A stretch of 41,394 nt of DNA from an uncultured Opitutia bacterium (GTDB lineage Bacteria; Verrucomicrobiota; Verrucomicrobiia; Opitutales; Opitutaceae). Each line of letters starts with the position of its first letter. Position 1 is the first letter of the stretch. A program made the translations under genes and the position numbers. Shown here in pieces: positions 1 through 3,688 of this stretch. Location of the stretch: the NCBI GenBank assembly GCA_903902745.1, contig CAIUWA010000038.1:1-41394 (forward strand). The letters run 5' to 3'. The notes beneath the pieces are model-generated. The model saw only the letters and a program-made list of their open reading frames with translations, was not told where the DNA came from and ran no database searches.

Positions 1-728
1 ACGGTGAAGTTGTCCGCATAAGTGCCCGGTAGATCAACCAGCAGCGTGCCGCCGGCAAACACGGGGTTAACGGAGGCGCCAAGGTTGCTGGCCAGATACT
101 GGGGATTGGCGAGATCGATATCCGTGCTGGCCGGCGGCAGGGCGGCGCCAAACACCGCGTGGGAGGAACCCAGGGTGATGTTATCAAATCCGACCTCGTT
201 GGCCGCACCGCCAAAGAATACGGACAGGGCACGACCCGAAAAAGTTACACCCACTTGATTCTGACTGGTATCGAAACCTCCATCGGAATAATAGGTGTTA
301 GCCAAGGATCCGTTCGCGAGCAATGTGCCGGATCCGTCCAGTCCGGAATACACGGAGTAGAAGGCGTTGCTCGTGCCGGAGGTATAATAGAAGGAGAAGC
401 CGGTGTCGAAGCCCCCGACCACGTCCATGATGGACTCACTGCCACCCGTGAAGAACAGGAGCGTGGGCATGGAGGCTGAGTTGGCGAAATTGCCGTGGCC
501 GCCATAATACATACTTACGAGGGCGAGGGTATTGTTGCTAAAATAAATGCCGTAGTCCTCCGCCGAGCCGCCGTTGTAATAGTTGCCCACCGGGTTGTAG
601 TCACCCACACCCTCGAAAGTCAGGACGGTCACGGTGTTGGCCGGTAGCGCGAAGCTGGTTCCCGTTGCAAACAGGTACATCCAAAGGGACAGCTTCCAGA
701 AGGTGGCGCGGTGCTTCTTTTTATTCAT
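1..728 (-). CDS. Secreted autotransporter / PEP-CTERM-like surface protein (3' part outside window)
   Basis: Reading the minus strand from the ATG at 728 gives an open frame of 242 codons that leaves the window at base 1. It begins MNKKKHRATFWKL followed by a hydrophobic stretch ending near TSFALPA, which fits a signal peptide. Residues about 30-195 are Gly/Ser/Tyr/Asn-rich and resemble the repeat-poor beta domain common in PEP-CTERM exported proteins (FEGVGDY near the start, VGFDNITLGS near the end). After that the frame continues with NPVFAGGTLLVDLPGTYADNF, a style typical of autotransporter-associated repeat passengers. The start overlaps the stop of the upstream ATPase gene as ATGA, so the two may be translationally coupled. 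The C-terminus is not visible, so neither a beta-barrel nor a PEP-CTERM sorting motif can be confirmed. The family assignment is inferred from composition and phrasing, not from a search. Confidence 0.6.
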   Translation of the reverse strand, partial: MNKKKHRATFWKLSLWMYLFATGTSFALPANTVTVLTFEGVGDYNPVGNYYNGGSAEDYGIYFSNNTLALVSMYYGGHGNFANSASMPTLLFFTGGSESIMDVVGGFDTGFSFYYTSGTSNAFYSVYSGLDGSGTLLANGSLANTYYSDGGFDTSQNQVGVTFSGRALSVFFGGAANEVGFDNITLGSSHAVFGAALPPASTDIDLANPQYLASNLGASVNPVFAGGTLLVDLPGTYADNFT

Positions 729-1774
729 GAGTTGTCCGAGCAGATAATAAAGGATCGGCAAACGCCATCTCCGTTTTGGATAATGTTCTTCATCGAAGTT
801 ATGTAAAAGGCAGTGCGCTTGGTGCAGTCACGGGCCTTGACGATGCCCACCGACATGTCGGCGAATTTCATGCTGGATCGGGTCTCGAACACCTCGCTGA
901 AAAGCTCGCGGAGCTCAGTGCGTTTGACGTCTTCGCGTACCTCACCAGCCGTACCGGTGCTCATGTGCATTCCGTGTTCAGTGGACCAAGCAAACCGAGG
1001 CCCGTCATTCTTGGCGATGGGTGCACCGCGCTGCTTGATGCCGTACAGTGTGACAACGCCGTCGCCATCCTTCTCGAGCGCCAGGTTGGATTCCGCCTTG
1101 CGCTCCAGTTGCGAGCCGAGATGGCCGCGCGACTTCTCTGAGCCGGGGTTAAAGTGGATCACCCCGACAATGACGCAGTCGTGTTCAATGGCCAAGGCGT
1201 GCAGCTCAGAAACGACCGCGTTGCATTCCTCGGCGTCGTTGACGTCGGCCACCATGTCACCGATGCCGTCAATCAGGACCGCATACGTTCCGCCTTCGAG
1301 TGAGGCCAGCCACAGCAGGGCCCGGAGAATTTCCATCAGGTTGCCAGGCGGGAAGCCGGCGACGAAATAGGACCAGCACCAGTCCGGCACGCGCTCGACT
1401 CCCGCCCGCATTGACGCCCGGCGGACGTTCGCGTCGGCATCGAAGTGTGACTGCTCGGTGTCGAGGTGGATGAGCTTCTTGCCGGCCGGTGGAGAGGCAG
1501 AGAAACCCAACAGGTCACGGTCAACAAGCCCGGCCTCGGCAGCGATCGGCGCAGCCAACATCGCGCCCACCGCGGCGGATTTGCCCGACTTGATCGGCGC
1601 TGTGATGGCGGTCAGGTTGCCCGGCGTGCAGACTGGCACGCCGTTGAGGCTATACCTGGGGACCGGCCTCTCCGGTGGAGCATCGGCATTAAACTGCCGC
1701 GGCGAGGCGACGGAAATCCATTTGAAGTGCCGCATTGCCGCGGCTGCCTTCTCGGTCGAAATCTCAGTTTTCAT
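725..1774 (-). CDS. RepA-like AAA family ATPase
   Basis: A 349-residue protein with a P-loop of the form APIKSGKS at residues 59-66 and a hydrophobic strand ending in Asp (YAVLIDGIGD) as candidate Walker B. A later segment, VIVGVIHFNPGS, matches the sensor region of RepA/AAA_25 helicases found in plasmids, phages and genomic islands. By family knowledge such proteins are hexameric DNA-dependent ATPases or DNA-repair/replication accessories; the substrate here is unknown. The start at 1774 (MKTEIS) was chosen because longer versions need a TTG at 1822 or the ATG at 1786, which run into the neighbouring dnaE2 remnant. No strong ribosome-binding site is visible for any of these. The gene lies beside broken genes, so acquisition with a mobile segment is plausible, but no integrase is seen. 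Confidence 0.7.
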   Translation of the reverse strand: MKTEISTEKAAAAMRHFKWISVASPRQFNADAPPERPVPRYSLNGVPVCTPGNLTAITAPIKSGKSAAVGAMLAAPIAAEAGLVDRDLLGFSASPPAGKKLIHLDTEQSHFDADANVRRASMRAGVERVPDWCWSYFVAGFPPGNLMEILRALLWLASLEGGTYAVLIDGIGDMVADVNDAEECNAVVSELHALAIEHDCVIVGVIHFNPGSEKSRGHLGSQLERKAESNLALEKDGDGVVTLYGIKQRGAPIAKNDGPRFAWSTEHGMHMSTGTAGEVREDVKRTELRELFSEVFETRSSMKFADMSVGIVKARDCTKRTAFYITSMKNIIQNGDGVCRSFIICSDNS

Positions 1775-1830
1775 GGGTCGGCCCATGAATCGGCTTCGCT
1801 CCCGGCTTGCGGAGTTGGGCAATTACTGCG

Positions 1831-1960
1831 GCAGCCTATTTGAAGGTGCACCGCCCGGCCGAATTCTACGTCGGGCTGCTCAATGCGCAGCCGATGGGAT
1901 TCTATTCGCCATCAACCCTGGTCCAGGACGCCCGCCGCCACGGCATGATCGTCCGTCCGG
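1831..1960 (+). pseudogene. Fragment of error-prone DNA polymerase III alpha (DnaE2/ImuC type)
   Basis: On the plus strand the frame starting at 1831 reads [20 protein letters not shown] and continues [20 protein letters not shown] before ending at a TGA a few codons on. The run [17 protein letters not shown] is a hallmark of DnaE2/ImuC polymerases, in the region just after the polymerase active-site domain. Only about 43 codons of a gene normally more than 1,000 codons long are present, with no start and no catalytic aspartates. It is therefore a decayed or transplanted fragment. The homology breaks at about 1960, exactly where metK homology begins on the other strand. Confidence 0.8.
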
Positions 1961-2018
1961 TCTTGTCCGGGTGACCCTCGGTAACGCTCTCCGATGAGAA
2001 GATGAAATCGGTGCTCAT
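1961..2018 (-). pseudogene. Truncated 5' end of metK (S-adenosylmethionine synthetase)
   Basis: From the ATG at 2018 on the minus strand the sequence reads [19 protein letters not shown]. This is the highly conserved N-terminus of S-adenosylmethionine synthetase, including the ATP-binding GHPDK. Homology stops after codon 19, where VCD would be expected and TGRT is found instead. The truncation point meets the dnaE2 fragment at about base 1960. The ATG sits 37 bp after the stop of the hypothetical gene at 2056-3072, which would be a normal operon spacing for an intact metK. The piece cannot encode a working enzyme; a complete metK must lie elsewhere if the organism is viable. Confidence 0.85.
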
Positions 2019-2055
2019 GAAATATTGTGGTTTTTGGAAATTCAGCTCCAAGAGG

Positions 2056-3072
2056 TCAGGCGTTGGGGGCGGTGGGCGGGGTGGCCAGGCATTGCTCGGG
2101 GAGTGGAATCGCCGAGAGGATTCCCATCCAGAAGGCGAAATCAAAGGCCAGTCGGGCGAGCTTTCTCGGTTGGTCTCCGGTGCAATACTCCACGGCGCAT
2201 CTTCCGCCTTCGCTTCGGCCGAAAAACGCCAGCGTCGCCCGCTCAATGTCGACCCGCCCGTTGGCGTCCGCTGCGTTTAACACCAGCGCGCGGTAGAGTT
2301 TGAGGGTAAATTCCCGGTTGGCTTGCGGGGCTTCGATCAGCATCTGCCGCAATACCTCGGGATGCTTCTGCGAAAAACGCCTGCCGCGGGTCCAAGCCTG
2401 CTCGACCCAAAAGGCCAAGCGCCAGGGATCGGGCAGCAACTGCGCGCAAGCCAAGGCTTCCTCCGCCTCCGGGCAGATAACGTCCCGCTCAATCGGCTGG
2501 TTGAGGTAGAGGCCGGACAGGAATTCTATGAAAGGGGCAACCCGGGGCCTGAAGCCGTTGCCCGTCCAATTCACAAGCCGGGCAGCGAGAAACCGGTTTT
2601 CATCTCCCAGCAGACAGGTCCGCTTGAAGATCAATTCCGCCAACTCGGCATGGCTTGCGGCCACCTCAAGACCAACTGCCAGGCCAAAGATGGTTTCCTG
2701 GCGCACCGTGTCGGCCTGATTCGCCCCGCAACTTTGCGACCAGTGCAATGACAGGCACTCCCGCAGATTGCCCACCCAGGCGTCGTCGTCTGACACGACC
2801 GTTGCTAGGGCGACGGCGGCGGTGCGGATGACATCCCGGTCGATTTCGGAGGGCGCCACAATGGCGAACAATCTCGCGGTTTCATCCGGTTTCCCTTTGG
2901 CCAGCACCACAGCATTGGTGAAGGCAATGACCGAGGAGCGTTTTGCGAAGGCGGCATCGCGAACGATGCCGAACTGTTCAAATGAATGGAGCAGGCCGGA
3001 GGCAATCTCCACGGCCGAAGCATTGGTACGCGGATCCTCTGTCAAGGTCAGCGCGAGACGATTTGATTTCAT
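2056..3072 (-). CDS. Hypothetical helical protein
   Basis: A 338-residue protein I do not recognise. The start MKSNRLALTLTEDP at 3072 was preferred to a GTG at 3174 because the added N-terminus looks non-coding (Trp/Arg/Cys-rich). The sequence is rich in Ala, Leu, Glu and Arg in regular amphipathic stretches (for example GLLHSFEQFGIV and HAELAELIFKRTCLL), suggesting an all-alpha, possibly repeat-type fold. No signal peptide, transmembrane segment, P-loop or metal motif is evident. Several Trp/Phe residues cluster near DPWRLAFWVEQAW around residue 235. The truncated metK begins 37 bp downstream on the same strand, so the gene may once have been co-transcribed with metK. Confidence 0.6.
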   Translation of the reverse strand: MKSNRLALTLTEDPRTNASAVEIASGLLHSFEQFGIVRDAAFAKRSSVIAFTNAVVLAKGKPDETARLFAIVAPSEIDRDVIRTAAVALATVVSDDDAWVGNLRECLSLHWSQSCGANQADTVRQETIFGLAVGLEVAASHAELAELIFKRTCLLGDENRFLAARLVNWTGNGFRPRVAPFIEFLSGLYLNQPIERDVICPEAEEALACAQLLPDPWRLAFWVEQAWTRGRRFSQKHPEVLRQMLIEAPQANREFTLKLYRALVLNAADANGRVDIERATLAFFGRSEGGRCAVEYCTGDQPRKLARLAFDFAFWMGILSAIPLPEQCLATPPTAPNA

Positions 3073-3688
3073 GGGCTGGCGGGTTGTTCCGGCCAGTAGT
3101 GCATCGAGACAAAAGTTCGAGGCTTTTGGACACCGCAGAGGGCGTCCCACATCAATGGACCACCGCGACCACACTTTAACGCTAAGCGGAAAAGAAAGGC
3201 TCGGTTGGCGGGCGCCTCACAGAGACGCCACTCTAACGATGCACTACTGAAAAGAACGCCGGCAGTGTATCACGCCTGTCAAATCGAGCCCGGAAATCGA
3301 TGCTCCCGACTGCCGGCGGGGGCACAATGGGGTCAGTTTGAAGCGAATGAAGCGAATCCGCCGCTCAAATCGGGTTTGAGCTGGCACCCATTCGCTTCAA
3401 GACTTTGCCCCGTCTCTCCACCCTCAGAGGGAGTTCCCCTCGAAAACAGGCTGATTCGCTTCAAAAAGTTCTCGGTTTGGCTCCGACCGGGCAGCCATTC
3501 GACGCGTGGTGCGATGCTCCGCTTACTCATGGCGTGCGGCCGGCATGCTCGGGTTGCATGAACCCATTGGGAGCCGAAGCGCGCCGGCCTGCGAGGAACT
3601 CAGTTGAAAAAGCATCCGTCTTCCGCCCTTCTGCGGATCACCCCCTGTCGTACTGTTACCGACTGGTTGTTTTCCTACTCACTCCCCC
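3073..3688. other. Gene-free stretch with palindromic sequence
   Basis: About 616 bp lie between the start of the minus-strand hypothetical gene and the plus-strand esterase. Short open frames exist on both strands but none has convincing protein character. The middle (3329-3462) holds four copies of the 9-mer GAAGCGAAT in both orientations, described separately. Promoters for the two divergent flanking genes must lie here, but no clear -35/-10 pair can be assigned. Confidence 0.5.
3329..3411. repeat. Large imperfect inverted repeat with inner hairpin
   Basis: The outer left arm begins with GGGG and contains TTGAAGCGAATG (3329-3350). The right arm (3389-3411) is its imperfect complement, CATTCGCTTCAAG to CCCC. 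Inside lies a perfect small hairpin, CTCAAA (3364-3369) and TTTGAG (3375-3380) around a TCGGG loop. The 9-mer GAAGCGAAT occurs twice in direct tandem at 3340-3357 and in reverse at 3390-3398 and 3454-3462. The element could be a REP-type palindrome, a regulator site or a cruciform; nothing in the sequence decides between these. Confidence 0.6.

Follow-up and report, generated by a model that had tools for sequence, protein, structure and literature searches.

How an internal piece of an error-prone DNA polymerase gene came to lie directly against the truncated start of an S-adenosylmethionine (SAM) synthetase gene, and what kind of locus was damaged in the process, is the question raised by the first kilobases of this stretch of DNA. 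The window (the whole stretch analysed, 41,394 nucleotides) is the entire contig C38 of an Opitutaceae draft genome, G000, of 3.29 Mb in 52 contigs with a completeness of 98%.

Two gene pieces and their junction

The first piece is an internal fragment of dnaE2, the gene of an error-prone DNA polymerase, recognized by both protein and DNA homology. It lies at positions 1825-1962 on the plus strand, the strand originally given, and spans 46 codons rather than the 43 stated at that time; a full-length DnaE2 polymerase frame has about 1000-1100 aa. The best-scoring protein match is 76% identical (E 1.2e-20). A search with the piece gave matches in 67 of 150 genomes of the family, the own genome included, with 59-78% protein identity to the 66 relatives. 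With this distribution, dnaE2 is an accessory, patchily occurring gene in the family. In all 66 other genomes the matched stretch sits in an open frame of 339-1645 aa; hence, no second fragment of such a kind was seen. The nearest relative belongs to the own genus by DNA (79.3% identity over 121 bp to a same-genus dnaE2) and to other genera by protein. When G000 was searched with a full DnaE2 query, the matches were confined to this piece and, at 31% identity, the replicative DnaE on C9; neither an intact dnaE2 nor any further pieces appeared. The fragment is proposed to be without function.

The second piece, on the minus strand at 1962-2018, comprises codons 1-19 of a second metK, the gene of S-adenosylmethionine synthetase, and nothing else is left of the MetK N, M and C domains. 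It was identified by Pfam and by comparison: S-AdoMet_synt_N scores 24.6 bits (E 3.9e-5), or 21.3 bits (E 9.4e-4) genome-wide, both under the cut-off of 33.1 bits, as expected from only 19 residues. Protein searches, thus, agree with the predicted homology of the two fragments to DnaE2 and MetK, respectively. The operon-like position described for the stub was also found, with a spacer of 37 bp to a complete 338-aa gene (stop codon at 2056-2058). The stub, too, is proposed to be without function.

A broken core metK is ruled out by the housekeeping copy, which is intact on C24 and whose protein begins MAKSFVFSSESVGEGHPDK; a search with the MetK of a relative, G106, found no second full metK in G000 among the matches listed. 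The original prediction, according to which two core or near-core genes were broken, therefore fails for metK. The other gene, dnaE2, is accessory in the family, yet no intact copy was found in this genome.

The similarity to dnaE2 stops at about 1962-1963 and the similarity to metK begins at 1962, with an overlap of about 2 nt (CT). Intact dnaE2 genes have other codons after VRPV, and their comparison with the window sets the join at 1962-1963. The two pieces do meet within one or two bases, as had been proposed. Microhomology-mediated end joining on the hexamer GTCCGG, the mechanism suggested earlier, is ruled out. This hexamer, which occurs 16 times on the plus strand of the window, is present at 1955-1960 and 1965-1970, 10 bp apart, one inside each piece; such an event retains one copy, and because both survive, it is not the crossover. 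No viral contig contains the exact 27-nt junction.

The 338-aa gene and its SAM-I/IV-like riboswitch

The complete gene next to the stub (2059-3072, minus strand) encodes a 338-aa protein of an Opitutaceae family without known domains. No Pfam, NCBIfam, PHROGs or PADLOC family was matched at the thresholds used. The predicted structure is all-helical, with a mean pLDDT of 87.2. At E 0.001 or better, Foldseek returned nothing from the PDB, and no fold was assigned, as the best VIA-align Z of 5.0 (104 residues, 4.1 Å) is too low for a helical protein. The protein family is present in 8 of 150 genomes of the taxonomic family, the own one included. A profile search of the order matched 4 of 372 genomes, again with the own one, and added G075; five genomes of the first search are absent from these matches and may not have been among those sampled. 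Seven named loci are found in genome_contigs, six in Opitutae/Opitutaceae MAGs and one labelled Verrucomicrobium. Viral contigs contained no relative.

Upstream of this gene, a SAM-I/IV-like riboswitch is located at 3116-3247 on the minus strand. Searched alone against Rfam RF01725, it reaches 26.8 bits for a cut-off of 41.1; the Rfam model gave no match at the gathering threshold, and at E 1 in 27.5 kb the window copy was absent from its matches. A model of 12 relatives, built without the window, scores the same positions at 46 bits (E 1.4e-8; genome-wide E 2.0e-7), and the copy upstream of the 338-family gene in G106, equally untrained, scores 31.1 bits. Among the copies upstream of 338-family relatives, three (L013, L012 and L011) pass the Rfam cut-off, and three others (L010, L014 and L016) fail it. 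In the alignment, the window copy shares the conserved core sequence and the helices with relatives passing the threshold. It differs from the RF01725 type in an enlarged loop and in its score below the cut-off.

SAM-I/IV riboswitch matches occur in 78 of the 150 genomes. At 30 such loci, a homologue of a DUF6538-type small gene is near in 23, the 338 family in five and neither of them in two. As the riboswitch is common and the small gene so often close to it, the two form a widespread unit, to which the metK cassette described below is an addition. G000 itself has a second riboswitch match (C42:8780-8870, L170) in the vicinity of a CoA-ligase gene, with a homologue of the DUF6538-type small gene after it; the arrangement in G001 (L174) is similar. 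In two genomes of one genus (G074 C4:176163-177729 and G115 C10:262735-264922), the dnaE2 stretch is followed by a match 1.3-2 kb downstream, possibly by coincidence.

Farther along the window, in the gap before an esterase gene, positions 3348-3463 contain an inverted repeat, TGAAGCGAATCCGCC / GGCTGATTCGCTTCA, that looks like REP-type repeats. The region presumably resembles REP/RAYT elements.

An accessory metK cassette in related genomes

With the MetK of G106 as a query, matches were obtained in 141 of the 150 family genomes. Eight genomes (G106, G027, G083, G056, G003, G011, G075 and G036) possess an accessory metK, 67-100% identical to that of G106, and all eight also have a housekeeping metK; the other MetK copies listed do not exceed 61% identity. 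The gene order at six of the eight accessory loci is riboswitch, DUF6538 protein, MetK, MoxR ATPase and VWA/HExxH protein. The small DUF6538-type gene precedes metK in seven of the eight. The MoxR and VWA genes follow it in six, G106 included (tblastn), and were not found within the stretches fetched for G011 and G036. At E up to 1, a riboswitch match lies ahead of seven of the eight genes, that of G106 alone passing the Rfam cut-off. In G011 (L120 9553-9720), a group II intron match is located just downstream of the accessory metK, perhaps another decayed cassette.

The locus of G106 is part of an integrative element with a tRNA-Leu, an integrase, an HTH gene and a primase-helicase. This element combines a 338-family gene, an intact second metK, riboswitches, the MoxR ATPase and the VWA protein. 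The 338 family also adjoins the accessory metK in G036 and G075, where it is weakly conserved, and occurs without it in G066, G090, G138, G141 and G111. Among the 149 other genomes, eight carry the 338 family and eight the accessory metK; an overlap of at least three has a chance probability of 0.005. The 338-aa protein may be an optional, SAM-controlled accessory of the cassette system.

The HExxH residues are invariant in five aligned VWA proteins; of three proteins tested, two have weak Pfam matches for the VWA part. Across the phylum, a profile of the VWA protein matched 11 of 387 genomes, in several cases weakly. MoxR, VWA and a divergent MetK occur together in G733, G593 and G686 (in the last, split over two contigs); here, MetK is 27-29% identical to the accessory MetK, and the riboswitch matches reach 27-51 bits. 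G638 has the MoxR and VWA genes without a divergent MetK or a riboswitch match. Both kinds of MetK, accessory and divergent, are present in G003. At L119 5209-6360, a divergent MetK (about 30% identity) ends a cassette that also holds the accessory MetK. The divergent form retains SPGHPDR, GGPxGDNGLSGKK and GGGAxxGKDPHK, and that of G003 reaches half of the NCBI metK cut-off score. The MetK part of such a system may be a canonical second MetK in Opitutaceae and, in other Verrucomicrobiota, a divergent form with 28-30% identity. In plasmids, 166 records matched the divergent MetK, all under 60% (ten listed at about 32%), and none the VWA protein.

Adjacent MoxR and VWA genes were found only in the relatives: the VWA profile gave no match in G000, and none was seen at the scar of the window. 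PADLOC returned no match for two window proteins and, of six cassette proteins of the relatives, only a weak one for MoxR. A known defence system is, thus, unsupported by PADLOC.

The AAA gene and a second scar

On the other side of the dnaE2 piece, an AAA_25/DnaB-like ATPase gene of the integrative-element type extends from 1822 to 809 on the minus strand, with a native start inferred at about 1774. The original prediction correctly placed an AAA ATPase gene next to the dnaE2 piece; the gene is itself broken at 808/809, a scar that had gone unnamed. The AAA_25 domain is present (21.1 bits, for a Pfam cut-off of 27), and PHROGs ties the protein to DnaB-like helicases. Its natural C-terminal tail is missing, replaced after residue 338. 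Twelve aligned relatives extend 17-60 aa beyond the match, and the last 27 codons in the window are read from a block shared with another genus.

As two of the 12 alignments continue past the inferred break, by 5 and 9 residues, the tail was tested against a profile of these relatives. The last 27 residues of the window gene add 1.9 bits, a value equalled or exceeded by 82 of 200 shuffled tails and 135 of 300 random window frames. The last 27 residues of the relatives themselves add 6-31 bits in 11 of 12 cases and 0.1 in one. A native AAA tail beyond 808 is, therefore, unsupported, its 1.9 bits being no better than those of shuffles and random frames. Alignments and tail test together place the second scar at 808/809.

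The block itself, positions 1-808, shows 96.3% DNA identity to C21:1-808 of G129, a genome of another genus, and the match ends at 808. Its minus-strand gene (3-761), which runs off the contig end, encodes a protein that looks exported, has no known function and gave no NCBIfam match. This identity suggests a recent transfer of a shared segment reaching past both contig ends. The GC content rises from 55% in 1-808 to 61-63% in the AAA and 338 genes and to 64.7-66% beyond 3.7 kb. AAA_25 relatives were found in 18 of the 150 family genomes, the own one included, the match in G129 being the tail only, and also in four viral contigs. In G066, the order is tRNA-Gly, an integrase-like gene, small genes and the AAA gene. 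The contigs of the window and of G129 (C21, L065) begin at the same homologous base.

Probable origin as a mosaic of remnants

Illegitimate recombination in an accessory region has probably turned positions 1-3250 into a mosaic of remnants, truncating an accessory SAM-synthetase locus along the way. These positions contain an ATPase gene of the integrative-element type that is cut at its 3' end (808/809), the internal 46-codon piece of dnaE2, a metK cut after codon 19 and the complete 338-aa gene with its SAM-I/IV-like riboswitch. The 338-aa gene and the stub would be what survives of a single SAM-responsive accessory locus of the G106 kind. The remaining cassette would have been deleted as the dnaE2 piece and the AAA gene became attached to this locus, at a join with hardly any microhomology. 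The DUF6538 gene, which usually precedes the accessory metK, is missing at the stub. The riboswitch that remains would still put the 338-aa gene under SAM control. Of the two origins put forward earlier, the capture of fragments by a mobile segment fits better than an insertion or deletion, because of the type of the AAA gene, with its tRNA and integrase-like neighbours in G066, and because of the second scar at 808/809. Against it, the window contains no tRNA, and the surroundings of the scar showed no integrase.

The stub likely derives from the accessory MetK cassette, and its 19 codons in themselves do not decide between an accessory and a housekeeping origin. Its best match is the accessory metK of G056 (14/16 aa, 38/48 nt); the housekeeping copies compared share 13/16 aa, and FSSESV/SSESV in the stub is the housekeeping form. 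A duplicate of the housekeeping metK that decayed here and had nothing to do with the cassette would account for this motif and is unlikely: the stub adjoins a 338-family gene, the neighbour of the accessory metK in three other genomes, and the own metK on C24, with the same 13/16 aa, shares only 34/48 nt. This divergence also rules out a recent copy of the own gene.

Quite unlikely is a single deletion that fused a neighbouring metK locus to a native dnaE2 site, of which the piece would be the last relic. It would agree with the same-genus dnaE2 as the best DNA match, with the failure to find an intact dnaE2 in G000 and with a BD-FAE esterase gene downstream on the same strand in both the window and G001. 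The two esterases, however, are only 33% identical over 134 aa, and the HrpB helicase gene beside the dnaE2 of G001 is unmatched among the best 30 tblastx rows against the window, which leaves the native site unsupported. Moreover, both flanks of the piece are unlike dnaE2.

An assembly or binning artefact, in which short repeats joined unrelated contigs, is very improbable: the scar lies only 1.8 kb from a contig end in a 52-contig draft, and both this assembly and that of G129 break at one homologous point, but it would take three joins separated by tiny pieces, two of them chimaeric for the 138-bp piece between unrelated contexts alone, and both the 338 frame and the AAA frame, the latter as far as the scar, are open. 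The two gene pieces are real remnants, and the scar is ordinary genome decay.

Comparison with known systems and significance

The locus resembles decayed integrative elements and genomic-island junction remnants in its short internal gene pieces, truncated element ATPase, deviating GC content and sharp junctions, and differs from them in lacking a tRNA in the window and a visible integrase near the scar. Phage genomes also carry metK: the accessory MetK matched 136 of 50,697 phage records. Of these, however, 133 are under 60% identical to it and none is above 80%.

For the cassette of the relatives, the closest likeness is to MoxR-VWA pairs (RavA-ViaA, NorQ-NorD and rubisco activases) and MoxR-vWA conflict systems (Kaur 2020, PMC7159879), with which it shares adjacent MoxR and VWA genes. 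It differs in the association of the pair with a MetK homologue and a SAM riboswitch; at the scar of the window, no MoxR or VWA gene is left. In the text of that article, MetK, AdoMet, SAM synth and riboswitch are absent, and adenosylmethionine appears only in five references. No description of a SAM-riboswitch MoxR-VWA-MetK cassette was found in the literature searched. Other MoxR-VWA pairs activate or remodel client enzymes. It is possible, if somewhat short of probable, that an undescribed accessory system was formerly present here, in which a SAM-I/IV riboswitch would control a DUF6538 protein, a MetK homologue, a MoxR ATPase and a VWA/HExxH protein; by analogy, the MoxR-VWA pair may activate or remodel MetK, with SAM feedback through the RNA.

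The scar alone documents genome decay and corrects the idea of a broken core metK. Its value is as a pointer to the cassette and to the 338-aa protein family, which is uncharacterised and apparently under direct SAM control. The apparently undescribed cassette is a lead worth keeping; if it is confirmed, SAM synthesis would be linked to an AAA+ activase pair.
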